Shown: piece by piece, positions 7,512 through 22,795 of the stretch
Layout of the letters: each line of letters begins with the position of its first letter
How positions within the stretch are numbered: the first letter of the stretch is position 1
Program-made: the position numbers and the translations under genes
Notes under the pieces: generated by a model
Told to the model about the DNA's origin: nothing
The model's input: the letters and a program-made list of their open reading frames with translations, nothing else
Databases searched by the model: none
DNA from: a virus
IMG/VR virus record: IMGVR_UViG_3300010371_000109
Span: 1-25,100 of that record
DNA length: 25,100 nucleotides
Direction: 5' to 3' (one strand)

Positions 7512-7536
7512 GGTCGGGGGAAAGTGGCCACGTTTG

Positions 7537-9009
7537 ATGGTCAAAATCCCCTACCATCCAGGCAAACCCTCTCCCCTCCCCCAGTCAAATCTAGGAACCT
7601 CCCAGTTGTCCATCCAATTCCCCGAAAAGATGCAACCGCTCTTTCGCCCGAAGCGATTTAAAGTCTTCTGGGGCGGACGTGGCGCGAGCCGGAGTTGGAG
7701 CTTCGCTCGGGCGCTGTTGTTGAAGGGGACACAGCAGCCGCTGCGGGTGCTTTGCGCGAGAGAATTTCAGAACTCGATTGAAGAGTCGGTTCATAAGGTA
7801 CTCAGCGATCAGATTCGAAACCCGCCGCCGGAAGGGCTGGGACTGGAGCACGCGTATCGGATTGAGAAGGCACATATTTATGGTCCTGGAGGAACGACGT
7901 TTAGCTTTGAGGGGATCAAAAACAACACTAACCGGATTCGATCCTACGAGGGCATTGATGTATGCTGGGTGGAGGAGGCAATTAAGGTCACTCGGGCGAG
8001 TTGGAACATCCTGATCCCAACGATCAGGAAGCCCGGGAGTGAGATCTGGATGAGCTTTAATCCGGAGCTGGAAGATGATTACACCTATGAGAGATTTGTG
8101 AAGGAGGTTCAAGCCGATGGGGAACCGGCTGGGCCTGGGGCCTACGAGACTGATCTGGTGATCTCTGTCAAGATGACTCACGCAGATAATCCGTGGTTCC
8201 CGGAGGTTCTGGAGCTCGAACGCATGGAAGCCAAGCGGAGAGGCGAGCGCCCGGGGCATGAGCAAGACTATGCGGATTACCTGAACGTCTGGGAAGGGCA
8301 TTGCCTCCAGATGATTCACGGCGCTGTGTTTGCGCGGGAGATGTTGCGAGCTCAGGAAGAAGGCCGGGTATGTAGCGTTCCCTGGGAGCGTGCTTGGCCG
8401 GTGGATACGTTCTGGGATCTTGGTCGCGCGGACCAGACGGTTGTGTGGGGCGCACAGCGTGTGGCGATGCAATATCGGGTGCTGTTTTGCTATGCGGCGA
8501 GCGGTCAGCATATCGGACACTTTACCCGGGAGTTGCAAAACCGGGAGTATCAATATGGAACCCATTACCTCCCCCATGACGCGAAGGCCAAGCGACTGGG
8601 AAGTAAGCGAACGATTGAGGAAATGATCCGGCAGGCGTTTCCGAATTGCAGCACTCGGATCGTGCCGAAGCTGAGTGTGGTGGACGGGATCAACGCAGCT
8701 AGGACGATTCTCCCAAACTGCTGGTTTGACGAGGAAGCCTGCGAGGATGGCCTTCGGGGGCTGAAGCACTACCGATATAACGTAGTGAATGGGCAGCTGA
8801 GCAACGAGCCGCTACACGATTGGGCAAGCGACTATGCAGATGCTTTCCGATATCTGGCGGTATCGATGCGGGCTGAGGGCCAGCGCGCTGGAAGCGGAGT
8901 CCAAGCTCGGCTGGATCGCGCGCGAGAAGCCTCCCGCAGCGCGGCGTTGGAGTCCTCTGGTCGGCTGCGCGGGGGCGTGGCCTCGGCCCTCGGCTGGATG
9001 GGCCTGTAA
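7537..9009 (+). CDS. terL: terminase large subunit (ATPase and nuclease for DNA packaging)
   Basis: This 490-residue protein is the packaging motor. The N-terminal ATPase shows LSIQFPEKMQPLFRPKRFKV, then a Walker A-like GGRGASRS at ~46-53. Arg replaces the usual Lys there. The Walker B segment is IDVCWVEEA (~140-148), followed by a coupling motif SEIWMSFNPE. The nuclease domain shows WDLGRADQTVVW near residue 292, YLPHDAKAKRLG, and HDWASDYADAFRYLA near ~427, which supply the expected acidic residues. Length and order fit the Terminase_3/6-type large subunits of P22-like and related phages. The start is uncertain: ATG 7537 lacks a well-spaced ribosome binding site, TTG 7534 is adjacent, and the conserved region begins only near TTG 7606 or ATG 7630. 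The portal gene follows directly. Confidence 0.95.
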   Translation: MVKIPYHPGKPSPLPQSNLGTSQLSIQFPEKMQPLFRPKRFKVFWGGRGASRSWSFARALLLKGTQQPLRVLCAREFQNSIEESVHKVLSDQIRNPPPEGLGLEHAYRIEKAHIYGPGGTTFSFEGIKNNTNRIRSYEGIDVCWVEEAIKVTRASWNILIPTIRKPGSEIWMSFNPELEDDYTYERFVKEVQADGEPAGPGAYETDLVISVKMTHADNPWFPEVLELERMEAKRRGERPGHEQDYADYLNVWEGHCLQMIHGAVFAREMLRAQEEGRVCSVPWERAWPVDTFWDLGRADQTVVWGAQRVAMQYRVLFCYAASGQHIGHFTRELQNREYQYGTHYLPHDAKAKRLGSKRTIEEMIRQAFPNCSTRIVPKLSVVDGINAARTILPNCWFDEEACEDGLRGLKHYRYNVVNGQLSNEPLHDWASDYADAFRYLAVSMRAEGQRAGSGVQARLDRAREASRSAALESSGRLRGGVASALGWMGL

Positions 9010-9024
9010 AGGAGCACATGAGCT

Positions 9025-11277
9025 GTGGCTGGTGATCCGCGTCCAGGAGTCGAACAACTCACCGGGGATCCGGTGGTGGATGAAGCCACGACTTTTTTCA
9101 ATCATGTGGCAGAGTATGAGGCCGACTGGCGCACGAGGTTTATTGAAGATATTCGGTTTGAGAACGGGGACTCGACGAACTACTATCAGTGGCCGGATCA
9201 GCTGCGCAACGCGCGGAGTGCGGACAACAAGCCCTGTCTGACCATGAATATGATCCGACAGCATAATCTGTTAATCTCCAATCAGCTACGGAAGAACAAA
9301 TCCTCGCCGAAGGTTATCGCGATGGGAGGTCAGGCAACGCAAGAGTCTGCCTCTATGATGAAGGCTCTGATTCGGCATATCGAGTACCAGTCTGATGCGC
9401 AGGACGCCTATACTGTTGGCCGGAGCTTCCAGATCGGCGGGGGTATTGGCTGGGTGCGGTTGGTTACCGACTGGGTTCCGGGGACATTCGAGCAGGAGAT
9501 CTACATCCGGCCGATTTTGGACCCACTCACGGTCTTTATTGACCCTAATTGCAGGCAGAAGTTCACCAAGTCCGACGCGAAGCGCGCGATTGTCTTCGAC
9601 ACACTCCCGGTGGATGAGTTCCTGGAGGCATTTCCGGAGGCCGAGGACTGTGTGGGACTCCAGCCGCTGGGGGTTGGAACGACTGATGGGGATTTGATTT
9701 CCAAGGATCAGGTTCGAGTAGCGGAGTATTTCCGCCGGGTGACCCGACGGGATCGGCTGATCAGCTTTGTCCATGAGGGAAAGCGGAGGAGCATCCGAGA
9801 GTCCATGCTCTCTGGGCAAATCGGCCGGATGATTCTCGACGACCCGTTGACTAAAGTCCGAACGGTTATGGATGAGGTGGTGGAGTGGAAGCTGATTGCC
9901 GGGAGCCGAGTGATTGACGAGACTGTCTGGCCAGGAGAGTGGATTCCGCTGATTCCGTTCCTGGGCGAGGAGACCGTCATCGATGGTCGGTTGGATCGCA
10001 AGGGTCACACTCGGGCGATGAAGGATGCACAGCGGATGTATAACTACGCCGCGAGTGCTAGTGTGGAGGTGGTAGCAACTCAGACCAAGACTCCTTGGGT
10101 CGCGTCCGCTCGTGCCATCGAGGGTCATGAAGTCCAGTGGAACTCGGCCAACACGCAGAACGCGAGTGTTTTGGTCTGGAACGATGTGGATGAGGACAAC
10201 CCGGACACAAAGATCGATAAGCCCGAGCGTATTCCTCCACCAGTAGCAAGTCAGGGCTTTGAGACCGCAATGGTAACAGCCCAGCAGCAGATGATGCTTA
10301 CCTCGGGGCAATATCAGAACGCGCTGGGACAGCTGGGAAACGAGCGAACTGGAAAGGCCATTACTGCTCGGCAAGAGCAGAGCGACACCCAGGTTTTCCA
10401 TTTCCAAGACAACTACGAGTCCGGGCTGAAGTTCCTTTGCAAGCAGATCATCGGAGTGATTCCGAAGGTCTACGACACGCAAAGGGTGGTGAAAATCCAG
10501 GCGGAAGATGGGACGGATCTGGAAATCGAGATCGATCCTGGCGCACGGCTAGCGTACTTGCAGGAGGTCGGGCATCAAGGAGAGGTGGCGCGGAGGATTT
10601 TCAACCCAGCTCTCGGCCGGTACGACATTGCTGCAGATGTGGGGCCGGCCTATACCAGTCGCCGCCAAGAGACTCTCGACGCGCTGACGCTGATCTTGAC
10701 CCAGGCCCCTGGGCTGGTCGGGATTATCGGGGACTTGCTGTTCAAGAACATGGAGTTCGACGACGCGATGGAAGCAGCACAGCGCCTGCGTCGGATGGTT
10801 CCGCCGGAAGCTCTTGGTCAAGGCCCTACCCCGGCTGAGCAGCAACTGCAAGCCCAGGTGGCGGCGCTGGGAGGCCAGCTGACCAAGCTCTACGAGACTG
10901 CTGGGAAAGACAAGATCAAGCTGATCGGAAAGGATCAGATGAGGGAGATTGATGTTTACAAGGCCGAGACAGATCGGATGAAAGCCCTGGCAGATGTGCT
11001 TCCCCTCGACCAGCCAGGGCTGGAGCAGCTTGTGGGACAGCTGGTTCAAGAGGCCCTCAAGACCAGCTTGGTGCCGATATTGAAAGAAAATCTTGGAAAC
11101 GACGAGGGAAGCGTGACTGGTGATCTCCCCCAGGCCGAGGCTGAAGCCCCTCCGATCCCTGGTGCTCGTCGGGCTCCTGACAACAACTGGTATCTGGCCG
11201 ATCCGACCAGGACCGGGAAATATCTCCGAGTTGGTCCACTCGCTCAACAGCGGGGTACCCCGCAGCGGGAGGCTTGA
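9025..11277 (+). CDS. portal protein, P22 gp1-like
   Basis: This 750-residue protein forms the dodecameric DNA entry ring. It matches the P22-type portal layout: an N-terminal segment with FFNHVAEYEADWRTRFIEDIRFENGD, QWPDQLRNAR and PCLTMNMIRQHNLLISNQLR, then GGGIGWVRLVTDW, DPLTVFIDPNC and SDAKRAIVFDTLP. A long helical and Gln-rich C-terminal part (AEQQLQAQVAALGGQLTKLY) could form the barrel. The length fits the family (P22 portal is about 725 residues). GTG 9025 is chosen because GGAG lies ten bases upstream, whereas ATG 9018 meets a stop after five codons. It lies 15 bases after terminase and 1 base before the lysozyme-like gene, the standard packaging gene order. Confidence 0.95.
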   Translation: MAGDPRPGVEQLTGDPVVDEATTFFNHVAEYEADWRTRFIEDIRFENGDSTNYYQWPDQLRNARSADNKPCLTMNMIRQHNLLISNQLRKNKSSPKVIAMGGQATQESASMMKALIRHIEYQSDAQDAYTVGRSFQIGGGIGWVRLVTDWVPGTFEQEIYIRPILDPLTVFIDPNCRQKFTKSDAKRAIVFDTLPVDEFLEAFPEAEDCVGLQPLGVGTTDGDLISKDQVRVAEYFRRVTRRDRLISFVHEGKRRSIRESMLSGQIGRMILDDPLTKVRTVMDEVVEWKLIAGSRVIDETVWPGEWIPLIPFLGEETVIDGRLDRKGHTRAMKDAQRMYNYAASASVEVVATQTKTPWVASARAIEGHEVQWNSANTQNASVLVWNDVDEDNPDTKIDKPERIPPPVASQGFETAMVTAQQQMMLTSGQYQNALGQLGNERTGKAITARQEQSDTQVFHFQDNYESGLKFLCKQIIGVIPKVYDTQRVVKIQAEDGTDLEIEIDPGARLAYLQEVGHQGEVARRIFNPALGRYDIAADVGPAYTSRRQETLDALTLILTQAPGLVGIIGDLLFKNMEFDDAMEAAQRLRRMVPPEALGQGPTPAEQQLQAQVAALGGQLTKLYETAGKDKIKLIGKDQMREIDVYKAETDRMKALADVLPLDQPGLEQLVGQLVQEALKTSLVPILKENLGNDEGSVTGDLPQAEAEAPPIPGARRAPDNNWYLADPTRTGKYLRVGPLAQQRGTPQREA
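11267..11272 (+). promoter_or_regulatory. Shine-Dalgarno GGGAGG deciding the GTG 11279 start
   Basis: GGGAGG lies inside the last codons of the portal gene, six bases before GTG 11279. It fixes a GTG start for the next gene in preference to the long open frame that extends back into the portal gene. Confidence 0.6.
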
Positions 11278-13775: not shown

Positions 13776-14171
13776 ATGGGACAGAATAAGCCGCAGGCTC
13801 AGCCGCAGGCTCAGCCGCAAGTGCTCCGCTCGGGCGATCCGATTGCTCACTTGGCCGTTGCCAAAATTGCTCGGGAAGCTGCGGCTGAGCTCTACGAGAC
13901 CTTGATGGGTGATAATCAGCTCCGCGCCGAGTGGCTCCGGCAGCACCCCGGGAAGACTGAGAAGCAGCTGCTGGTGCTGTTCGTGCGAAAACACTGGGGA
14001 AAGTGCATACCGTTCGCCCGGGCCACGATGGCACGAATGTTGGACAGTCCACTACCGCCCCACTTGAAAGATGAAATCCTAGATGCTCTAATCAAGGACC
14101 GATCGCTGCGACCACTGGAAGCCTCCAAGGCCCCAGCAGCGGTGATACTGAATCGAGAGGCGCTAAGGTGA
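13776..14171 (+). CDS. unknown phage protein, 131 residues, between membrane protein and scaffold
   Basis: ATG 13776 has GGAGG eight bases upstream, inside the preceding gene's end. The N terminus is a PQAQPQAQPQ repeat, and the rest is helical with HLAVAKIAREAAAELYETLM, LRAEWLRQHPGKTEKQL and FVRKHWGKCIPFARATMARML. It looks soluble, with no signal or membrane segment. The family is not recognised. Position upstream of scaffold and the GTGA overlap with it suggest a role in head assembly, but this is context only. Confidence 0.7.
   Translation: MGQNKPQAQPQAQPQVLRSGDPIAHLAVAKIAREAAAELYETLMGDNQLRAEWLRQHPGKTEKQLLVLFVRKHWGKCIPFARATMARMLDSPLPPHLKDEILDALIKDRSLRPLEASKAPAAVILNREALR
13791..13820 (+). 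repeat. 12-bp tandem repeat encoding PQAQ units
   Basis: CCGCAGGCTCAG occurs twice in direct tandem (13791-13802 and 13803-13814), followed by a partial third unit, CCGCAA. It encodes the Pro-Gln-Ala-Gln N terminus of the unknown protein. Unit length is a multiple of three, so copy changes stay in frame. Confidence 0.7.
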
Positions 14172-15058
14172 CAGCAGTGTGGCAGCAGAATTGGTGGGAG
14201 CTTGAGTGGATTTGCCCGGTCCAGGCTGGAATCACCATGATGGCTGGAGAGCCGGAGCCAGACCCTGAGCCTGGGGCGGGGGCAGAGCCAGCAGCCCAGG
14301 CGATCCCGGCCGATCCACAGCCGCAAGCCGATGATTCAGATCCCCAACCGCAGCCGGACCCGCCCGCACCCCCGCAGACCACAAAGCCAGCTGGAGATGA
14401 GTGGTGGCAGCGGAGGATCAACAAGCTTACTGCCAAAGCCAAAGCGTTGGAGGCAGAGAACGCCCAGCTGAAGCAAGCCCCCGCAACGCCCCCTATTCCG
14501 CCGGCTCATGTCCCAGGCGCTGTCCCCGGATCGCCTGAGTACCAAGAGGCCGTGCGTGCGGAAGCCCGAGCACTCGCCGCCAAAGATCGTTTCGATCAAC
14601 AGTGTGCGGATATTGCTACCGCCGGCCAGGAAGCCTTTGGAAAGGACGCGTTCGACCGGAGCGTGATGGGACTGGTAAACCTGGTTGATCGGTCGGACCC
14701 GGAAGAAATTGGACAGTACCGATCTCTGATCGAGGCTGCGATTTCAACCGGAGAGGCTCCTCGGCTGGTGCATCTGCTGGGCTCTGATCCTAATGAGGCT
14801 ACTCGACTGCTTGCCCTTCCGCCGGCCAGGATGGGAGTTGAACTCGCGAAGCTCGTGCTGACCCAGCCGGACCGGACAGTTTCCGGGGCACCCAAGCCAG
14901 CAAGTGTTCCCCGAGGCTCCGGCGGTGGCCAAGCCCCGCACACCAGCATTGATCCGACGGACCCGGAGCGGAGCGATAGGCTTTCAACTGCCGAGTGGAT
15001 GCGGAGGAGAAACGAACAGTCGTCCAGGTGGGATAATCAACCGAGGGGCGGGCGATGA
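14168..15058 (+). CDS. capsid scaffolding protein
   Basis: This product has up to 296 residues. It has an acidic Pro/Gln-rich N-terminal part (EPDPEPGAGAEP, DPQPQADDSDPQPQ), then a predicted coiled coil (WWQRRINKLTAKAKALEAEN), helical segments with EYQEAVRAEARALAAKDRF, and a C terminus with DPTDPERSDRLSTAEWMRRR. The acidic head, coiled middle and basic EWM-type tail, directly before coat, are hallmarks of podoviral scaffolding proteins, which template the procapsid and then leave. GTG 14168 has GAGAGG seven bases upstream and overlaps the previous stop as GTGA. ATG 14237 would remove an odd Trp-rich leader (VWQQNWWELEWI) and is a real alternative. The next gene starts in its stop codon (ATGA). 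Confidence 0.85.
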   Translation: MTAVWQQNWWELEWICPVQAGITMMAGEPEPDPEPGAGAEPAAQAIPADPQPQADDSDPQPQPDPPAPPQTTKPAGDEWWQRRINKLTAKAKALEAENAQLKQAPATPPIPPAHVPGAVPGSPEYQEAVRAEARALAAKDRFDQQCADIATAGQEAFGKDAFDRSVMGLVNLVDRSDPEEIGQYRSLIEAAISTGEAPRLVHLLGSDPNEATRLLALPPARMGVELAKLVLTQPDRTVSGAPKPASVPRGSGGGQAPHTSIDPTDPERSDRLSTAEWMRRRNEQSSRWDNQPRGGR

Positions 15059-15456
15059 ACTCAGATGTGACAACCTGGCCGATTTTGGCTGAGTTTCCCT
15101 GGAACTGGAAGCTCCCTCGTTTTGTTGAGGCCCGGCATGCTTCAGCAATCGAAGCATACGGGGAAGGGGAAGGGTATATCTTGGCGTTTTGGTGTCCTAA
15201 ATACCAGAAACACGTTGATGTAACAATCAATCTTCCACTTGACGATCCCTCCTGTGAGATTTATTCTCCAGATTTCTGGAATCACATGATGCGGCCGATG
15301 CTATGTAATCTCGGCAAATCAATTTTTGAATCAGTATATCCAGGTGAATTTGGAGGCATGCTTAGACGTAAACTACAGTCGGAAATTGCTGGGGGAGAAA
15401 GATGGCCAGAGGCAGATCGAGAGAAATGGCTGCTGTATAATTCGTTACAGTACTAA
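15055..15456 (+). CDS. AT-rich unknown gene between scaffold and coat
   Basis: This 133-residue protein starts at ATG 15055, overlapping the scaffold stop as ATGA, with GGGGCGGG just upstream. It has many aromatic residues (FPWNWKLPRFVEARHA, YILAFWCPKYQKHVDV, SPDFWNHMMRPML) and looks like a compact soluble fold. The family is not recognised. GC falls through the gene: by hand count, 74 G/C in the 180 bases 15181-15360, well below its neighbours. That suggests recent acquisition. About 150 bases without a convincing gene follow before the coat start. Confidence 0.7.
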   Translation: MNSDVTTWPILAEFPWNWKLPRFVEARHASAIEAYGEGEGYILAFWCPKYQKHVDVTINLPLDDPSCEIYSPDFWNHMMRPMLCNLGKSIFESVYPGEFGGMLRRKLQSEIAGGERWPEADREKWLLYNSLQY

Positions 15457-15603
15457 CTTGAAGTTTTCCCCTTCTGATGCTGGGGTAAATCGCATCTGCC
15501 GGCGACTGGGCGCTTAATCCCTGGACGGAGTTCACTGGGCTGACTCCAGCCTAAACGACGGCAAAGGTATGGAGACCTGTTGCCGATATCTGGAGCCAAT
15601 AAG

Positions 15604-16827
15604 ATGGCCGATGCGTTACTTACCATCAACATGATTACTCGAGAGGCTGTGCGCCTCTGGAAAAACACCAACGCTTTTCTGCAGAACGTGGACATGCAGT
15701 ACGACTCCAGCTTTGCCGTCACCGGCGCGAAGATCGGGTCGAGCCTCCGCATTCGTCTGCCCAACGACTTCACCGTAACGACCGGCCCGGCGCTCTCTGT
15801 CCAGGACACGGCGGAGCAGTCAACCACCCTGGTGCTGGCTACCCAGAAGCACGTGGACGTGTCGTACTCAACGGCCGATCGCACGCTGAGCCTGGACGAT
15901 TACTCCCGCCGGGTGCTCGCCCCGATGGTAAACAACCTCGCCGGTGCGGTCGCGGTGGATATTATGTCCGGGAGCGAGGGCGGGATTTCCAACTTCGTCG
16001 CGAACCAGGATGTGAACAATAATATTCTCTCCCCGATTGCATCCACCTATTTGAACTCCGGGGCGAGCCTGGACCTGCAATCTGCTCCGATCGCCAATCG
16101 GAAGATTGTCAACAGCCCCCGGACCGAGGCCCGAGTGGTGAGCGCGCTCAGCGGATTGCTGAACCCTGGGAGCGAGATCAGCCGCCAGTACGTTACCGGG
16201 CGGATGTACGATGCGCTTGGGTTTATCTGGATGAAAGACCAGACCGCGATTGTCCATACCACCGGGACGCTGGCTCAAGGTTCTGCCACTGTCAACGGGG
16301 CGAACCAGACCGGACTCAGCCTTGTTGTGAATGCCCTTGCTGGGAGTCTCAACGTCGGAGATATTATCACCATCGCTGGCGTGAACGCTGTCAACCGAAT
16401 CACCAAGCAGTCCACCGGAGAACTGATGCAGTTTGCTGTCACGTCAAATGTGGCGGTGAATGCGACGGTGATTCCAATCTACCCGGCGATTGTTCCGGCC
16501 AGCGGCGGACAGGCTGTCCAGTATCAGACGGTCACGGCGTCTCCGGCAAGCGGTGCTGCAGTCAATCCCAGCAACGGGCTGGCTGCCAGCACGGCTTATC
16601 GGAAGAACTTCGCGTTCGCTCCAGAAGCGGTTACGCTGGCCACGGCGGACCTTGAGATGCCGCACAACGTCCATGAGGCTGCGAGAGAAGAGTTCGACGG
16701 GGTGAGCATGAGGATGGTGACTGACTATTTCATCGGAACCGATCAGCTTATCACCCGGCTTGATGTTCTCTATGGGTATCTCTGGATTCGTCCCGAATGG
16801 GCCTGCGTTGTGGCTGATGTAGTGTAG
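15604..16827 (+). CDS. major capsid protein, P22 coat gp5-like
   Basis: This 407-residue protein forms the shell. The N terminus MADALLTINMITREAVRLWKN, then NVDMQYDSSFAVTGAKIGSS, RIRLPNDFTVTTGPALSVQD, TTLVLATQKHVDVSYSTADR and LSLDDYSRRVLAPMVNNLAG matches the gp5-type coat layout point by point, with an HK97 fold known for that family. Middle residues carry an insertion-like beta region (GTLAQGSATVNGANQTGLSLV, ITIAGVNAVNRIT). ATG 15604 is chosen because GGAG sits nine bases upstream; TTG 15580 would add eight residues. It follows scaffold with one gene between, as expected for a P22-like head operon. Confidence 0.93.
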   Translation: MADALLTINMITREAVRLWKNTNAFLQNVDMQYDSSFAVTGAKIGSSLRIRLPNDFTVTTGPALSVQDTAEQSTTLVLATQKHVDVSYSTADRTLSLDDYSRRVLAPMVNNLAGAVAVDIMSGSEGGISNFVANQDVNNNILSPIASTYLNSGASLDLQSAPIANRKIVNSPRTEARVVSALSGLLNPGSEISRQYVTGRMYDALGFIWMKDQTAIVHTTGTLAQGSATVNGANQTGLSLVVNALAGSLNVGDIITIAGVNAVNRITKQSTGELMQFAVTSNVAVNATVIPIYPAIVPASGGQAVQYQTVTASPASGAAVNPSNGLAASTAYRKNFAFAPEAVTLATADLEMPHNVHEAAREEFDGVSMRMVTDYFIGTDQLITRLDVLYGYLWIRPEWACVVADVV

Positions 16828-16838
16828 GTCCTCCTCCA

Positions 16839-17288
16839 GTGCTCCAGTGGAAACTCCTCCATGATCACCTGGTCAACCAGCCGCAGCACTACGAGCGTCC
16901 GCAGCAGGTCGCTCGGATCGCTCGTGCGCTGACGCTGGTCCAGGAAGGTCTGGAGGAGCTTTCCCGGCTGGGGCATCATTTTGAACTTCTTGGGACAGAT
17001 GTTCCTCGGGACTCCTGGCCACGACTGGTGTTCCACCTGCAAAAGGCCCCGCGCGGGTTCTTTTGTCTCTCCGAATTTGATTTCGAGCATGCACTGGGCG
17101 GGACTGAGGCCGGCTGGCACGACACGCTGGATGAAGCGAAACACTCAGCTGGGATGGACAAGCAGTTCACCAGAGGTGGAGTGTTTCCGAAGCGCGGGCT
17201 GCCTGCGCTGGGAGCCCCCGAGGATCTCACCCCGCTGGAGCAGCTTCGCCGCCGAGGGCTGCTGGATTCAAACGGAAACAGGGATTGA
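16839..17288 (+). CDS. accessory protein A of a three-member FPKMLY-like family
   Basis: This 149-residue product has no clear database-level name. It aligns by eye with the next gene: LVQEGLEELSRLGHHFELL here against EVEQGMEKLRALGHHLYLA there, then DSWPRLVFH against DEFPKMLYR, then AGWHDTL against DGYDDHPS. The C-terminal third (GGVFPKRGLPALGAPEDL) is unique to this copy. GTG 16839 has no good ribosome binding site, so the start is uncertain. The gene lies 11 bases after coat. A capsid decoration or accessory role is possible from position, not shown. Confidence 0.6.
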   Translation: MLQWKLLHDHLVNQPQHYERPQQVARIARALTLVQEGLEELSRLGHHFELLGTDVPRDSWPRLVFHLQKAPRGFFCLSEFDFEHALGGTEAGWHDTLDEAKHSAGMDKQFTRGGVFPKRGLPALGAPEDLTPLEQLRRRGLLDSNGNRD

Positions 17289-17302
17289 AAGGAAACATTC
17301 AA

Positions 17303-17686
17303 ATGTCTGACATATCAATCGCCGGAGCCAGCGCACTATTCTCCGGGTCTCCGGCTGAGATAAGCGATCTCCGAGCCGAGCTCGCTGATCATCATGCTGA
17401 TGAGCCCCAGAAGGCGATGCTTGCTGATCTGGCACTCCGCGAGGTCGAGCAGGGGATGGAGAAGCTCCGCGCGCTAGGACATCATTTGTACCTGGCCTGG
17501 GGAGAAGGCCCGGCGCGGGATGAATTCCCCAAAATGCTCTACCGGGACCGAGACGAGCTGCAACAGGTGGTATTTACCGAGGGAGAAGAGGCGCAAGCCC
17601 GCGCCGATGGGTATGACGACCATCCGAGCCTGCGGAAGCCTGTGGCACCTGAGAGCCAAATCCCGCGCTCCGATCCACAGGTGTAG
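17303..17686 (+). CDS. accessory protein B of the FPKMLY family
   Basis: This 127-residue protein starts at ATG 17303 with AAAGGA about nine bases upstream; TTG 17285 is a poorer option. It has an N-terminal helical part (EISDLRAELADHHADEPQK), then EVEQGMEKLRALGHH (LGHH at 58-61), then EFPKMLY at ~74-80, an acidic EGEEAQARADGYDD segment and a Pro-rich tail. The EFPKMLY, then acidic residues, then GW/GY plus a Pro or Ser-rich end is a short motif seen in small phage proteins near head genes. Related copies lie on both sides. The role is unknown. Confidence 0.7.
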   Translation: MSDISIAGASALFSGSPAEISDLRAELADHHADEPQKAMLADLALREVEQGMEKLRALGHHLYLAWGEGPARDEFPKMLYRDRDELQQVVFTEGEEAQARADGYDDHPSLRKPVAPESQIPRSDPQV

Positions 17687-17690
17687 CCTG

Positions 17691-17858
17691 ATGCCGGTCG
17701 GGAGCAAAGTTGCAGAGGTTAAGTCCAAGCTGAAGCAGGAATACCCTGGGAATCCCTCTGCGGTCTACGGAACGCTGAACAAGACAGGGCTCATGCATGG
17801 AAATAAGCCCACGCGAAAAGGGCTGGAGAAAGCGAAGCCAAAGGGTTATGGGCGATGA
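17691..17858 (+). CDS. 55-residue basic protein ending in GYGR
   Basis: ATG 17691 has AGGTG seven bases upstream. The product is MPVGSKVAEVKSKLKQEYPG, then NPSAVYGTLNKTGLMHGNKP, then a Lys-rich tail ending KPKGYGR. It resembles small Lys-rich phage proteins with a YP-x-NP...GTLNK-x-G-x-MHGNK core, found next to head genes, but no function is known. The following tiny gene overlaps its stop (ATGA) and ends in almost the same tail. Confidence 0.65.
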   Translation: MPVGSKVAEVKSKLKQEYPGNPSAVYGTLNKTGLMHGNKPTRKGLEKAKPKGYGR

Positions 17859-18025
17859 AGGGGGAGGGGAGCACTCAGCCTCGGACGATCCGGCCCAAGC
17901 TTGAGCCGCTTGCTCGGACAGGTGGCCTGGCGTTGGACTCAGCCGGCGTGCTCTCCGAGCAGCCGAAAGCTCAAGCCCCCGGGCCGAAGCAGAAATTCAA
18001 ACCACTGGCCGGTTATGGCCGATAG
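17855..18025 (+). CDS. 56-residue protein ending in GYGR
   Basis: ATG 17855 overlaps the previous stop as ATGA and has AAAGGG nine bases upstream. The product starts MKGEGSTQPRTIRPKLEPLA and ends PGPKQKFKPLAGYGR. It is Pro/Lys-rich and probably disordered, with no hydrophobic segment. It matches nothing recognised. Its stop is part of the AGGAG site of the Tad2-like gene, so the two are closely coupled. Confidence 0.55.
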   Translation: MKGEGSTQPRTIRPKLEPLARTGGLALDSAGVLSEQPKAQAPGPKQKFKPLAGYGR

Positions 18026-18033
18026 GAGCAGTA

Positions 18034-18312
18034 ATGGAAACAATTGGTTGGGCAGTAAAACAGATGCACGACGGAGCGCGAGTACGTCGTGCTGGCTGGA
18101 ACGGGAAAGATATGTTTCTTTTCCTTGTGCCTGGTTCGCGATTTCAAGTAAATCGTGCTCCGTTACTGGGGATTTATCCCGAGGGAACAGAGATCGACTA
18201 TCACCCTCACGTGGACATGAAAACTGCACAAGGCTATGTGGTTCCGTGGCTGTGCTCGCAAGCAGATTTGCTTGCAACTGACTGGGAACTTGCTGACGAG
18301 GAGCCGGGCTAA
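18034..18312 (+). CDS. tad2: Tad2-like (DUF2829) anti-Thoeris protein
   Basis: This 92-residue protein matches the DUF2829/Tad2 family along nearly its whole length. In order: IGWAVKQMHDGARVRRAGWNG (residues ~4-24), KDMFLFLVPGSRFQVNRAPL, LGIYPEGTEIDYHPHVDMKT, and VVPWLCSQADLLATDWEL near the end. The R-x-G-W-N-G, FLVPGS, VNR-x-P-L, IYPEGTEI and VPWL-x-S-x-x-DLL-x-x-DW blocks are the family hallmarks, and the usual length is about 90 residues. Characterised Tad2 proteins bind and sequester the cyclic ADP-ribose-type signal of Thoeris defence, so the host effector is not activated. AGGAG lies five bases before ATG 18034. It sits in the accessory cluster behind the coat gene and overlaps the next gene as TAATG. 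Confidence 0.88.
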   Translation: METIGWAVKQMHDGARVRRAGWNGKDMFLFLVPGSRFQVNRAPLLGIYPEGTEIDYHPHVDMKTAQGYVVPWLCSQADLLATDWELADEEPG

Positions 18313-18785
18313 TGCGCGGATCGACACGGAATATCCATACTCGCTACCATGCGATGGAGGCGGCTGGAGCGTTTGACTCCAACCCGGCCAACCCGACCTC
18401 TCGGGATCAGGATGGCCAGACGCTTTACCGGGGGCCGGTGGAATTCCCGAAGATGCTCTATCATCCTCAGGGCCTCGAACGCGTAACGGTCCCGGGGGAG
18501 GTGGTGTTGTCCCCTGGTGGGCGCGAGGTGCTGCTGGGGCAACAGCGCGAGCTGATTCACCGGATTGTGGCGGACGCGGTGGAAGAGGCCGAGGCCCTTG
18601 CCGAAGGCTGGCATACCACTCCAGCTAAGGCTATTGCTGCCAGCGGTCGCACGCCCCCGCCGGAAAGCCCCGCCCAGGTTATATCCGACAAGGACGCGGA
18701 GATTGAACGTCTGCGTGCGCAGCTGGCGGAGGTACAGGGGGCTGGAGTCGGGAAGAAACATGCTAGCGCGGGGGCTGCGCCATGA
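18312..18785 (+). CDS. accessory protein C of the FPKMLY family with C-terminal coiled coil
   Basis: This 157-residue protein starts in the Tad2 stop (TAATG). It has a disordered-looking N terminus (HAMEAAGAFDSNPANPTSRD), then VEFPKMLYHP at ~43-52, an inserted stretch with ERVTVPGEVVLSPGGRE, then EEAEALAEGWHTTPAKAI at ~91-108. A likely coiled coil (DKDAEIERLRAQLAEVQ) ends the protein. The FPKMLYHP...EEA...GWHTTP pair is the same as in protein B, with an insertion between the halves. The conserved motif is common in small phage proteins of unknown role; an accessory head or neck function is possible. Confidence 0.7.
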   Translation: MRGSTRNIHTRYHAMEAAGAFDSNPANPTSRDQDGQTLYRGPVEFPKMLYHPQGLERVTVPGEVVLSPGGREVLLGQQRELIHRIVADAVEEAEALAEGWHTTPAKAIAASGRTPPPESPAQVISDKDAEIERLRAQLAEVQGAGVGKKHASAGAAP

Positions 18786-19012
18786 CCGGGCCGGAGGATA
18801 TCCAGGTCACAACTGGAACTGTCCCAGCTGATGCTGAGACGGGAGCGCAAAATCAGCAGGTGGTGATTCAAGACTCCAGTGCCCGGCGAGCCTGGACTGG
18901 TGAGGGCACCACGGTTGGGGAGGCTGCGACGCAGGCGGTGCGAAAGCTGCTCGGCGATCGGCGGGTGCGGGAGTACACTGGGACTGGGCTTGGACTTGGG
19001 ACCAGGGACTAA
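18782..19012 (+). CDS. 76-residue unknown protein before the tail-adaptor gene
   Basis: ATG 18782 overlaps the previous stop as ATGA. The product starts MTGPEDIQVTTGTVPADAET and continues with QQVVIQDSSARRAWTGEGTT, VGEAATQAVRKLLGDRRVRE and a Gly-rich end. It looks like a small soluble protein with one helix near the C terminus. No family is recognised. Six bases separate it from the adaptor gene. Confidence 0.6.
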   Translation: MTGPEDIQVTTGTVPADAETGAQNQQVVIQDSSARRAWTGEGTTVGEAATQAVRKLLGDRRVREYTGTGLGLGTRD

Positions 19013-19018
19013 CCGCCA

Positions 19019-19807
19019 GTGGCCCTGCTAAACCCCGCCGCACTTACTGCCGGCGATCTTTGTACCCAAGCCCTCCGCGAATGCGGCGCGCATGGACAGG
19101 GGACTACTCCGACCGCAGATGAGCTGGAGGACGCGCAGTTCCGCCTGCAGACCATGCTGCAACAGTGGCAGAATCAGCGCTGGCTGGTCTATCACCTGGT
19201 AACCTACAACGCTACGAGCGGCGGTCAGCAGGTCTACACAGTGGGACCGGGGGGTTCAATCGATCCGGGTGTTCAAACTGATCTCTCCCCCGCGCTGCCG
19301 AGCTATCAGCGCCCGGATCGAATCGAGTCCGCGTTTCTCCGGCAAATCCAGAACTCCCAGCCCAATCAGATCGATTATCCGCTGGTACAACTCCCCTCCA
19401 TGGAGGACTACAACCGGATCGCGCTGAAATCCCTGGTAAGCTTTCCGGGTTGGTTCTTCTATGACCCAGCTTGGCCATTGGGGCAACTCCACGTCTGGCC
19501 AGTCCCGAACGCCTCGATCTACGGGATTTTCATCTCGATCAAGGAACAGCTCCCCGCGAGCTTTGCAACCAGCGCCTCAACGTTCAACTTGCCGTATGAG
19601 TACTATGGTGCAATGCTCTGGAACCTCGCCGAGCTGCTCTGTCCAAGCAAAGGGCTGCCAGTGAGCGTCGATCTTCGTCGGAACGCCAAGAACGGCCGAG
19701 GAGTGCTCCGGGCCAGCGCCACCGCGATCAGCAACCTGGTGATGCCACGGGAGGTCCTGGGCAAGCGCCGGGATGGGTATAATATTTTCTCCGATCAGTT
19801 CTACTAG
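19019..19807 (+). CDS. head-to-tail adaptor / tail accessory factor, P22 gp4-like
   Basis: This 262-residue protein opens with AALTAGDLCTQALRECGAHG, TPTADELEDAQFRLQTMLQQ and WQNQRWLVYHLVTYN, the layout of P22 gp4-like tail accessory factors (known to bind the portal and stabilise packaged DNA). The remainder has beta-rich segments (IYGIFISIKEQLPASF) and a typical NLPYEYYGAMLWNLAELLCP motif followed by a basic tail region. GTG 19019 is the best start, with AGGGA about ten bases upstream. It is longer than P22 gp4 (about 166 residues), like many relatives in other phages. Confidence 0.85.
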   Translation: MALLNPAALTAGDLCTQALRECGAHGQGTTPTADELEDAQFRLQTMLQQWQNQRWLVYHLVTYNATSGGQQVYTVGPGGSIDPGVQTDLSPALPSYQRPDRIESAFLRQIQNSQPNQIDYPLVQLPSMEDYNRIALKSLVSFPGWFFYDPAWPLGQLHVWPVPNASIYGIFISIKEQLPASFATSASTFNLPYEYYGAMLWNLAELLCPSKGLPVSVDLRRNAKNGRGVLRASATAISNLVMPREVLGKRRDGYNIFSDQFY

Positions 19808-19822
19808 AAGGAGCTTTCGATA

Positions 19823-20272
19823 ATGTCCATCATCTCCGCCTTGATCGACCTCTTTCCCAGCTTCATTCCCGGCCCGCGCCTGGTTGACGGCGGAGAGTGT
19901 CTCCAGCTGGCTCAGTTAATCTGCTCGGCCAAGACCGGATACACCGCGCTCGCGGGTGGAGGCCAAGCCGGGGCAACTCAGCTCATCACCACGCTGAATG
20001 AAGTCCCAAACGTCGCGAGCGACAATGACTCGGTGATGCTTCCGCTGGCCATCCCAGGCCGTTGGGTGGTGGTGAATAACACCAGTGGACACAGCCTCCA
20101 GGTCTTCGGCCAGCCAATCAACCCGAACAATGCTGGTGCCGGCGATACCATCGCGCCGAATAACTCGGTCATCCAGGCCGCGACGGCGACCGGCGTAGCC
20201 CAAGCCACTGCCGTCATGGCCATCTATGTTTGCACGACTATTGGTCAGTGGAAACAGGGCTCGATGGCGTAG
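19823..20272 (+). CDS. beta-rich structural protein of unknown role between gp4- and gp10-like genes
   Basis: This 149-residue protein has AAGGAG nine bases before ATG 19823. It has a hydrophobic N-terminal stretch (MSIISALIDLFPSFIPGPRL) and then a beta-rich domain with VMLPLAIPGRWVVVNNTSGH, SLQVFGQPINPNNAGAGDTI and AVMAIYVCTTIGQWKQG. The latter strongly recalls small beta domains at the ends of phage fibre and decoration proteins, where a value-like loop with VVVNN and IxPNxS turns repeats. Placement in the neck gene block suggests a virion part, for example a decoration or fibre-associated protein. Confidence 0.7.
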   Translation: MSIISALIDLFPSFIPGPRLVDGGECLQLAQLICSAKTGYTALAGGGQAGATQLITTLNEVPNVASDNDSVMLPLAIPGRWVVVNNTSGHSLQVFGQPINPNNAGAGDTIAPNNSVIQAATATGVAQATAVMAIYVCTTIGQWKQGSMA

Positions 20273-20284
20273 CAGGGCTGGGAA

Positions 20285-21799
20285 TTGGCTCGCATTCCTC
20301 TCATCGGCGGGGCGTACAGCAGCCGGAGTGTGATCTCCGGGGCTGGAGGCCGCTGCGTGAACCTGTATCCAGAGCGAAACCCGCCAGATGCTCTGGTCCC
20401 TGTCACACACTACCAGCGACCGGGACTACGCGCGCTGGTTCAAGGGCCTTCTGCTCCCGTTAGGGGCTTGTGGCGTGCGAGCAACGGGAACGGCTATTGC
20501 GTGATCGGCCAGGGATTTTATCAGATCGGAGCAAATTGGGCGTTGACGCACCTGGGAGATCTCTCCCCCGGACGGAGCAACCCATGTAGTTTTACCGATT
20601 TTGGTGCTGCGGTTGGAATCGGCCTGGTGGTTGATGGCAGCTCCCAGGGCTGGCAGGTCAATCTGGCCTCCGGTGCGTTCAGTGCGGTGATTGACCCAAC
20701 TGGGAGCTTCGTTGGCGCGGACCGGGTGGATTATATCGACACTTTCGTTCTGTTCAACATCCCTGGAACCAATCAGTTCGGTTGTACGCTGAGCAACGAG
20801 CTGGCTTTTGACCAGCTGAACCTGGCTGCCAAGACGGATTATCCAGATTTGCTCCAAACCCTGATCGTAAACCGCCATGAGATCATTCTGTTCGGAACGC
20901 TCAAGTCTGAAATCTGGTACGATGCTGGGAATGCCCAGTTCCCCTTTGCCGAGCTCCCAGGGGCCTATATCGAGCATGGTACGGTAGCGAAATATAGCGT
21001 GGCCAGCGCGGATATCTCGGTGTTCTGGTTGGGAATGGACCTACAAGGCCAAGGCTACGTGTTCCGTCAGCGTGGGTATGAAACCACGCGAATCAGCAAT
21101 CACGCGCTGGAGTGGACGCTTTCTCAGGTGCAAGAAGCTGGTGGGACCCTGACAGACGCCATCGGCTACACGTTCCAGAAGTCCGGGCACCTCTTCTACG
21201 TGCTCCAATTCCCGTCCGCCGACATGACTTGGGTCTACGACGACGCGGTGCAAGATCCGCTGATTGCCTGGCATCAGGAAGCCTGGACAGACTCCAACGG
21301 CACGTTGCACAGGCATCGAGGAAACTGCTGCGCCTTCATCAACGGGGTGAATGTCTGTGGAGACTGGCAAAACGGGACCTTGTACGCGATGGACTTCGGG
21401 AGCTTCACCGATGAAGTCCTCGGAGTCCCCGGGCCTATCAGCTTCATTCGGACTTTCCCCCACCTCGGCGCCATCACCAGCCGGGAGGGTTTCCCAGCCA
21501 TTCCGACTGACGGCCGCCGAGTGGTTTTCAATCGTCTGATGCTGGATATGGAATGCGGAACCACCGGAGACCTGTCCGAGTTCCCGGCCCAGATCACCTG
21601 TCGGTACTCCGACGACCGAGGGAAGACCTGGAGAGGAGTAGTGCTGCAATCCGCCGGGGCACAAGGGCAATATGATACCTGGCCGCTCTACAACAACCTG
21701 GGCGAGGCGCGTGATCGGGTGTTTGAGATCGAATACTCAATCCCCGGCCCAGCCGCGCTCAACGGGGCTTGGGTGGATGGTCAGCTGGCGAGGAGCTGA
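20285..21799 (+). CDS. packaged DNA stabilisation protein, P22 gp10-like
   Basis: This 504-residue protein starts LARIPLIGGAYSSRSVISGA and GRCVNLYPERNP, and continues with RPGLRALVQGPSAPVRGLW, NGYCVIGQGFYQI, VDYIDTFVLFNIPGTNQFGC, LTLIVNRHEIILFGTLKSEI-like blocks (LQTLIVNRHEIILFG, EIWYDAGNAQFPF), and VFWLGMDLQGQGYVFRQRGY. This is the gp10-type family that forms part of the tail hub below gp4 and plugs packaged DNA. P22 gp10 is 472 residues, so the length fits. TTG 20285 is accepted because the family's IPLIGGAY block begins immediately after it; AGGG lies about eight bases upstream. The next gene begins in its stop codon (TGATG). Confidence 0.9.
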   Translation: MARIPLIGGAYSSRSVISGAGGRCVNLYPERNPPDALVPVTHYQRPGLRALVQGPSAPVRGLWRASNGNGYCVIGQGFYQIGANWALTHLGDLSPGRSNPCSFTDFGAAVGIGLVVDGSSQGWQVNLASGAFSAVIDPTGSFVGADRVDYIDTFVLFNIPGTNQFGCTLSNELAFDQLNLAAKTDYPDLLQTLIVNRHEIILFGTLKSEIWYDAGNAQFPFAELPGAYIEHGTVAKYSVASADISVFWLGMDLQGQGYVFRQRGYETTRISNHALEWTLSQVQEAGGTLTDAIGYTFQKSGHLFYVLQFPSADMTWVYDDAVQDPLIAWHQEAWTDSNGTLHRHRGNCCAFINGVNVCGDWQNGTLYAMDFGSFTDEVLGVPGPISFIRTFPHLGAITSREGFPAIPTDGRRVVFNRLMLDMECGTTGDLSEFPAQITCRYSDDRGKTWRGVVLQSAGAQGQYDTWPLYNNLGEARDRVFEIEYSIPGPAALNGAWVDGQLARS

Positions 21800-22216: not shown

Positions 22217-22795
22217 ATGTTCATGATCCTCTCGCTCCCGCGCTCGCGCTCCGCTTGGCTCGCCCATTACCTAAACTACGGCTCACGTCGGTGCGGACAT
22301 GATCTGGCAATCCAGGCCGATACGATTGAACAGTTCCTGGGGGCATACCAGCAGGGGCTCTGGGGAACCTGCGAGACCGGAGCGGTGGTTGCTTGGCGGC
22401 TTATCCGGCATCTCGCCCCGGAGCTTCGCCTGGTAACCGTCCACCGTCCGCTGATCGAGGTCTGTCGGAGCCTAGAGGCTCGAGGGCTCGTCCCTCGGCT
22501 GGATGAGCTGGCCCAACGAGAGGCCGCGCTGGAGGCGCTTGCCAAGCAGCCTGGGGTGCATTCCCTGGATTTCCGAGATCTGGCCTCGGTCGATGCGTGT
22601 GGTTGGTTGTTCGAGCACTGTCTGGAACTTGAATTTGACCCAGAGTGGTATGCAAGATGTTCGATACTGAATATCCAGGTGGATCTCGTGGCGCGGGAGG
22701 CTCAACTACGCGCGCGGGCTCCGGCAATCGCAGGGCTGATGGCGGAAGTTCGACGGGAGACCCTTCGGCTGGGGCTGGGGAGAGGGCTGAACTGA
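22217..22795 (+). CDS. sulfotransferase-like P-loop protein
   Basis: This 192-residue protein begins MFMILSLPRSRSAWLAHYLN. The LPRSRSAWLA segment (~7-16) corresponds to the 5'-phosphosulfate-binding loop of sulfotransferases (usual form LPRSGTTWL, and PRSRTAW in phage relatives). A second segment, LRLVTVHRPLIEVCRSLEAR, carries an Arg and Ser at the spacing expected for the 3'-phosphate-binding motif. The following part (HSLDFRDLASVDACGWLFEH, ELEFDPEWYARCSIL) fits phage sulfotransferase-like proteins. The length suits a compact phage version. The substrate is unknown; host surface glycans, nucleotides or virion proteins are all possible. There is no strong ribosome binding site at ATG 22217, and ATG 22223 is an alternative. 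The GNAT-like gene follows with overlap. Confidence 0.75.
   Translation: MFMILSLPRSRSAWLAHYLNYGSRRCGHDLAIQADTIEQFLGAYQQGLWGTCETGAVVAWRLIRHLAPELRLVTVHRPLIEVCRSLEARGLVPRLDELAQREAALEALAKQPGVHSLDFRDLASVDACGWLFEHCLELEFDPEWYARCSILNIQVDLVAREAQLRARAPAIAGLMAEVRRETLRLGLGRGLN
22780..22785 (+). promoter_or_regulatory. Shine-Dalgarno GAGAGG before a probable CTG start
   Basis: GAGAGG lies six bases before CTG 22792. No ATG, GTG or TTG in the GNAT frame falls at a suitable distance, so this site supports initiation at CTG, coupled to the overlapping stop codon CTGA at 22792-22795. Confidence 0.4.

Follow-up and report, generated by a model that had tools for sequence, protein, structure and literature searches.

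A Tad2 homologue in the head-tail operon of a virus with a P22-type coat: a predicted nucleotide-signal sponge that looks like mobile cargo

Why should a gene for a predicted nucleotide-signal sponge lie among the head and tail genes of an uncultured tailed phage? We addressed this question in the window, the whole stretch of DNA analysed, which is the entire IMG/VR record of 25,100 bases and possibly a genome fragment. A preliminary description had assigned one of its small ORFs to the Tad2/DUF2829 family and had regarded its position in the late structural block as odd.

RESULTS

The ORF encodes a Tad2 homologue

The tad2 ORF (positions 18034 to 18312, plus strand) runs from ATG to TAA and encodes 92 amino acids, as translated from the window. 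All the peptides quoted in the preliminary description (RAGWNG, FLVPGS, and the others) were found in this translation, and the family assignment made there was supported by the profile search it had called for. The ORF matched PF11195 Tad2-like, the DUF2829 family, with an E value of 2.8e-23 and 82.7 bits against a curated Pfam cut-off of 25, and the match covered residues 3 to 86 of the protein and positions 2 to 72 of the 73 in the profile. A separate genome scan scored the ORF at 81.7 bits for Tad2-like. In a phmmer search against the PDB, all seven distinct sequences at E ≤ 10 were Tad2/AcrIIA7 chains (best E value, 4e-14), in the order Myroides odoratus Tad2 (ModTad2; 8v3e/9eib), SptTad2, HgmTad2/AcrIIA7, and SPO1 Tad2. 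The PHROGs families matched by the protein were only ones annotated as unknown function, and NCBIfam profiles gave nothing at E ≤ 0.01. Eight columns were invariant among 81 aligned sequences (R19, G21, W22, W72, S75, D78, D83, and W84), and residues R19, G21, W22, N23, G24, K25, W72, S75, D78, D83, and W84 of the window protein were identical in ModTad2, SPO1 Tad2, and SptTad2.

The structure prediction that had also been suggested gave a fold in agreement with known Tad2/AcrIIA7 structures. The AlphaFold2 model, built as a single chain from an input alignment of 81 sequences, had a pLDDT of 92.8 and a pTM of 0.78. All 24 Foldseek matches at E ≤ 0.001 were Tad2/AcrIIA7 entries, the first being ModTad2 with His-ADPR (4.2e-8). 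In VIA-align, the Z scores of the model were 11.7 against 8v3e and 9eib, 11.5 against HgmTad2 and SptTad2, and 11.2 against SPO1 Tad2 with gcADPR (10.2 to 11.7 for the Tad2 entries overall), while the first unrelated entry scored 5.0. According to excerpts of PMC12043709, Tad2 is a homotetramer with ligand pockets between protomers. These results confirmed that the ORF is a Tad2 homologue of a known family, well supported but ordinary.

The tad2 gene lies between coat and adaptor genes

The genes of the window are ordered, all on the plus strand, as tail-fibre genes, terminase large subunit (TerL), portal, scaffold, P22-type coat, four small ORFs, tad2, b1, b2, Ad3, Hc3, and ejection protein. 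The head-tail setting proposed earlier thus held in Pfam and PHROGs searches, with TerL, portal, scaffold, and coat upstream of tad2 and Ad3, Hc3, and the ejection protein downstream. For comparison, we used 80 viral loci, including several near-duplicates, whose coat gene is 75 to 99% identical to that of the window (hereafter, coat relatives). One of them, L098, lies on the same contig as the tad2 locus L001; the remaining 79 are the basis of the counts below.

7534-9009, plus strand: terminase large subunit (phrog_3717, 1.4e-47)
9025-11277, plus strand: portal protein (phrog_156, 5.1e-99)
14168-15058, plus strand: head scaffolding protein (phrog_8865, 7.2e-9)
15580-16827, plus strand: major coat protein, P22 type (Pfam P22_CoatProtein, 1.7e-34; phrog_283, 7.8e-57)
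16839-17288, plus strand: lineage gene a1 (a1 or a2 homologue in 45 of 79 coat relatives)
17285-17686, plus strand: lineage gene a2 (counted jointly with a1, as above)
17691-17858, plus strand: small variable ORF a3, about 55 amino acids (this stretch differs between the window and L001)
17855-18025, plus strand: small variable ORF a4, 56 amino acids (142 of 186 aligned positions match L001)
18024-18028, plus strand: ribosome-binding site AGGAG, spaced 5 nt from the tad2 ATG and overlapping the stop of ORF 17855-18025 (read in the sequence)
18034-18312, plus strand: tad2-like gene, 92 amino acids (Pfam, PDB phmmer, AlphaFold2, Foldseek, VIA)
18310-18314, plus strand: TAATG stop/start overlap from tad2 to b1 (read in the sequence)
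18312-18785, plus strand: lineage gene b1, a conserved gene of the coat-adaptor interval (69 of 79 coat relatives)
19019-19807, plus strand: head-tail adaptor, Ad3-like (phrog_637, 1.6e-7; phrog_12985, 1.7e-26)
20285-21799, plus strand: head closure protein Hc3 (phrog_578, 5.7e-84)

The tad2 gene starts 1,207 nt (about 1.2 kb) downstream of the end of the coat gene. Coupling to both neighbours had been claimed; it stands downstream, where the tad2 stop and the next ATG overlap at base 18312, but upstream the link is loose, with the a4 stop 8 nt before the tad2 ATG. The products of a2 and b1 showed weak similarity (E value, 0.031), a possible duplication.

Two further features of the window were recorded. 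The late-block gene at 22217-22795 matched a PHROG annotated "hydrolase" (1.4e-8), and many coat relatives have a related gene in the corresponding position; the N terminus of its product may resemble a sulfotransferase P-loop. Long antisense ORFs on the minus strand at 7591-8769 (392 amino acids) and 9286-10482 (398 amino acids) lie opposite TerL and portal and are probably GC-driven artefacts.

tad2 is a constrained gene that looks like mobile cargo

Among the 80 coat loci, tad2 was present in L098 alone; it was not found in any of the other 79 (tblastn, E ≤ 1), 64 of which span coat to adaptor. The downstream gene b1, described earlier as an accessory gene, turned out to be a lineage gene, as its presence in most coat relatives indicates, and it is tad2 that looks like the newcomer at the locus. 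The coat-to-b1 interval ranged from 53 to 1,585 nt in the 64 spanning relatives (median, 703) and is 1,485 nt in the window. In L110 and L134, the same slot holds HNH-type endonuclease genes (Pfam HNH_3, 3.4e-10 and 1.6e-8). The endonuclease ORFs after the coat gene are at 7237-7821 in L110 and 7240-7779 in L134 (HNH) and at 2360-3055 in L133, where an AP2 match was seen below the cut-off only. Because such HNH/AP2-type ORFs occupy it in relatives, the slot after the coat gene accepts cargo. Some relatives also carry large ORFs between b1 and the adaptor gene (L110, 9624-12064; L122, 7344-11084; L139, 2346-3653), with starts that by eye resemble signal peptides; a Pfam scan of these three gave no match for two and only scattered, unconvincing matches for the third.

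Base composition and divergence were compared. The GC content of tad2 was 0.513 and its GC3 0.462, against a GC3 of 0.63 to 0.72 for the coat-to-adaptor genes; its plain GC is low, not extreme, near the 6th percentile for 279-base segments of the window. The tad2 genes of the window and L001 match at 267 of 279 positions, and nine of the 12 differences are synonymous (dN, 0.014; dS, 0.159). Against L002 and L003, synonymous sites were saturated at a dN of 0.06 to 0.07. The gene is under purifying selection. In L002 to L006, Tad2 is 83 to 91% identical to that of the window, L002 being the nearest relative outside the window/L001 pair (91% by tblastn, 87% over the alignment). In the flanks fetched for these five loci, the other window proteins were not found (BLASTP, E ≤ 1e-3), save for one 23% Hc3-like match in L002. 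Phages that are otherwise unrelated carry copies up to 91% identical to the window tad2. From the dN and dS values, the sporadic presence, and the similar copies elsewhere, we conclude that tad2 is an old, constrained, mobile gene that apparently arrived sporadically in this lineage, and it looks like mobile cargo. A DNA search against 50,697 phage records matched 93 of the 7,901 bases searched, in one record.

Elsewhere in the window, ORF 15055-15456, upstream of the coat gene, was the poorest in GC among the genes measured (0.455; GC3, 0.433) and the sole one with GC3 below that of tad2. Its relatives are weak (27%) and occur in few coat relatives, and it is possibly another late-arriving gene.

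Tad2 genes elsewhere have late as well as replication neighbours

The neighbourhoods of other Tad2 genes were examined at 78 loci, which remained from 96 after 18 redundant-looking or distant ones were dropped by eye. At 17 or more of the 78, the nearest same-strand ORF of at least 70 amino acids on one side was a virion or packaging gene. All of these loci but L002, which was placed from the neighbour tally, come from a scan of 20 neighbours from 18 loci, picked for length, among which 17 neighbours matched virion or packaging families, two had no match, and one matched a DNA primase.

Portal neighbour: L009, L014, L034, L041, L048 (scaffold on the other side), L056
TerL neighbour: L027, L030, L047
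Head-tail adaptor neighbour: L015, L045, L091
Internal virion protein neighbour: L024, L053
Tail gene neighbour: L083
Tape measure neighbour: L011
Coat/protease neighbour: L002

In L002, the gene immediately upstream of tad2 matches "major head and protease protein." Fifteen annotated phage records with a Tad2 gene were also read, five of them with mostly hypothetical neighbours. In Koot, two internal-virion-protein genes flank it, and in phiAH14a, it is flanked by head morphogenesis and coat genes. PmP19 has it close to tail and TerL genes, Pm86 has it between lysis and terminase genes, and in AB4P2 it adjoins lysis genes but lies on the opposite strand. In MW202475, MW202665, VLCpiS11a, RcXuper, and DSS3_MAL1, its place is inside, close to, or at the end of a set of replication or nucleotide-metabolism genes. 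For Sinorhizobium phage AP-20-A, the gene numbering in the parts of PMC13299392 consulted runs holin p014, Tad2 p015, autolysin p016. The position outside an early antidefence island, pointed out earlier, is not special, since Tad2 relatives adjoin virion or lysis genes as well as replication genes.

Enrichment of Tad2 in late modules was considered but not demonstrated; a random-ORF control from the same loci showed no clear difference. Nearest same-strand neighbours numbered 69 upstream and 74 downstream for Tad2 and 52 and 50 for the random ORFs, which came from 60 loci, and both sets include terminase, virion-structural, and tail genes. Only a large difference is detectable in this comparison, because the tallies give the first 25 families and count families, not proteins. 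Six upstream portals were confirmed for Tad2, against none among the 25 of 44 upstream-control families listed and one among the downstream controls; this excess was picked post hoc and is suggestive. What we claim is thus the recurrence of late neighbours, not enrichment.

Distances from coat to Tad2 varied. Pfam profiles placed TerL in 10 of 36 records of at least 30 kb, HK97 coat (PF05065) in none, and portal (PF04860) in two, and were too insensitive for distances. Coat genes were placed in two of 50 records with phrog_4523 and in five of 50 with phrog_283. Tad2 was adjacent to the coat gene in L002 and separated from it by 2.9 kb in L034, 3.3 kb in L041, 6.0 kb in L016, 6.2 kb in L024, 10 kb in L038, and 17.7 kb in L049; with distances from adjacency to about 18 kb, coat adjacency is not a rule. 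PDB searches with the ORFs that precede Tad2 in L002 and L005 gave nothing at E ≤ 0.1.

Some Tad2 genes differ in form or carrier. The Tad2 domain forms the C-terminal end of longer proteins in L188 (3770-4240; phiAH14a), L190 (3848-4291; 45A6), and L192 (3482-4264; SSP002). The window protein is matched by phrog_1048 and phrog_872 in their C-terminal halves only; partner domains at the N terminus may therefore be frequent. In addition, 257 plasmid records carry a Tad2-like gene less than 60% identical to that of the window (183 from Escherichia and 28 from Klebsiella); of H81 to H90, nine of the 10 listed are about 108 to 110 kb and may be phage-plasmids.

Late placement would fit a possible head-protein trigger

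Head proteins are made late in infection. In Staphylococcus aureus Thoeris, signal synthesis requires the major head protein, which alone suffices for it, and the prophage mutants described lost the trigger only without the head protein gene or rinA, as excerpts of PMC12578639 report. The same trigger is stated in the section consulted of a review (PMC12043709), and coat proteins, among them the one from Streptococcus pneumoniae phage Cp-1, also trigger a streptococcal Thoeris system (PMC12578639, in part). Capsid sensing is shown for certain Thoeris systems, not all, and is not known for P22-type coats; by analogy, the P22-type coat protein of the window is a candidate Thoeris trigger. Phage Cp-1 is a podovirus. 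In S. aureus, where the head protein is the trigger, a sponge made with the coat would appear together with it. The view that late timing is odd had presumed a signal made early in infection; given the head-protein trigger of some Thoeris systems and the recurrence of late neighbours, this premise does not hold.

We consider it probable that the Tad2 sponge is mobile cargo in the variable coat-adaptor slot, made with the coat and binding a TIR signal before the effector responds. The gene would have arrived in the slot between coat and adaptor genes and would be read from the virion operon, so that Tad2 is made together with the coat. A host TIR sensor of the Thoeris type would meet the new coat protein and start synthesis of an ADP-ribose signal, and Tad2, already accumulating, would bind this signal before the killing effector responds. 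Late transcription, ligand binding, and coat-triggered signalling in the host of this phage are supposed. Among bacteria with a close Tad2, the ThsB_TIR profile matched five of 11, against one of 14 control genomes, and ThsA_Macro matched none of 11, a profile for which the control matched nowhere either. The strongest ThsB_TIR match was in a Limnohabitans MAG, where a neighbouring gene had a below-cut-off Shedu match only.

An unrecognised promoter, phage-specific or of the host, could instead drive early expression of the same sponge, which would make its late position incidental. Other nucleotide-signal inhibitors act early; in the portion of PMC11722364 available, the 3'3'-cGAMP-binding activity of SPO1 appears at about 15 min and is likened to T4 Acb1. 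Tad2 relatives also occur among replication genes, and our promoter scan covered the sigma-70 consensus, which leaves room for other promoters. However, no separate tad2 promoter was found above chance in that scan: in 15400-19900 there was one sigma-70-like site against 1.1 expected from shuffles, downstream of the tad2 start, and the stop/start overlap ties tad2 to the next gene. Early expression is therefore unlikely. A literature search, mostly without subscription journals, found nothing on Tad2 timing or coat-operon placement.

If sponges sit in coat operons because the coat raises the alarm, the timing of counter-defence would be predictable from the trigger of each defence system, and, if so, cargo slots of late operons would be places to seek new counter-defence genes.

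A subfamily motif and the likely ligand

The window protein carries the motif S.F.VNR.PLL.I..EGT....H.H.D near the likely pocket. Positions S35, F37, V39, N40, R41, L44, L45, I47, E50, T52, H57, H59, D61, and P71 were at least 82% conserved over 76 rows, that is, the 81-sequence alignment minus five distant sequences. At these 14 signature positions, none agreed in ModTad2, SPO1 Tad2, or SptTad2. The motif is partly ascertained, as 80 viral Tad2 loci were found with peptide patterns from the window protein. In a pattern-free check, four of 15 phage records scored 9 to 13 of 14 and eleven scored 5 or less; these were a nonrandom sample, hand-picked at the better-scoring end from 60 listed of 360 tblastn matches. 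The nearest solved structures are about 31 to 37% identical to the window protein, and the motif marks a Tad2 group without a close solved relative. Because cultured representatives exist (Alteromonas phage AD45-P1, with 9 of 14 signature residues, and phage DSS3_MAL1, with 10 of 14), the ligand of the group is directly testable.

In the part of PMC12043709 consulted, the SPO1 pocket is assigned to strand beta4, the beta1-beta2 and beta3-beta4 loops, and portions of the final loop and helix. On our model, these elements appear to hold the shared invariants (20-27 and 72-78) plus H57, H59, and D61. A beta2-beta5 insertion, given there as the route of cyclic dinucleotide binding, is missing in the window protein, which in this region is 9 residues shorter than SptTad2 and about 15 shorter than HgmTad2/AcrIIA7. 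Because this insertion is missing, the ligand most likely belongs to the ADP-ribose class, judging from sequence. The same point bears on the alternative that the protein sequesters cyclic dinucleotides of CBASS, or inhibits CRISPR-Cas9 as the name AcrIIA7 implies, instead of binding a TIR product. AcrIIA7/HgmTad2 belongs to the same family, and the titles of structure entries name SptTad2 and AcrIIA7 with cGG, but without the insertion this alternative is improbable. Reuse of the Tad2 fold in a protein carried in the virion or serving assembly would suit the late position and the Koot homologue, but is very improbable given the retained family invariants, the homologues in replication modules, and the absence from the 79 other coat relatives, by which tad2 is not needed for this virion type.

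Returning to the coat-coupled sponge, a bolder form of it is that the motif marks an uncharacterised Tad2 subfamily whose ligand is a TIR product distinct from both gcADPR and His-ADPR, and that the protein is made alongside the coat as an antidote, coupled to the trigger, against immunity that senses coat protein; this we hold as a doubtful, though not idle, conjecture. The Tad2 family itself is already known, and the parts worth testing are the coat-coupled timing and the subfamily motif.

Comparison with known Tad2 proteins

The best sequence and fold match of the window protein is ModTad2, from a Myroides odoratus prophage (PDB 9eib, 8v3e), which has a similar length and likewise no long insertion. 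The two are 31 to 36% identical in structural alignments and have none of the 14 signature residues in common. Excerpts of PMC13299392 present ModTad2 as binding His-ADPR and acting against type II Thoeris. SPO1 Tad2 (Gp34.65; PDB 8sme/8smf/8smg) has the same family, fold, and core invariants but 0 of 14 signature residues, and it sequesters gcADPR (PMC12043709, in part). SptTad2 and HgmTad2/AcrIIA7 (PDB 8wjd, 8kbi-8kbk) share the fold (VIA Z, 10.2 to 11.5) but have the beta2-beta5 insertion, and SptTad2 likewise lacks all 14 residues of the window subfamily. In its setting, the closest published case is P015 of AP-20-A, a predicted Tad2 of a podovirus in a late-type neighbourhood; it has 97 amino acids, is closest to ModTad2 (50.5%), and belongs to a different phage lineage, according to the parts of PMC13299392 consulted.
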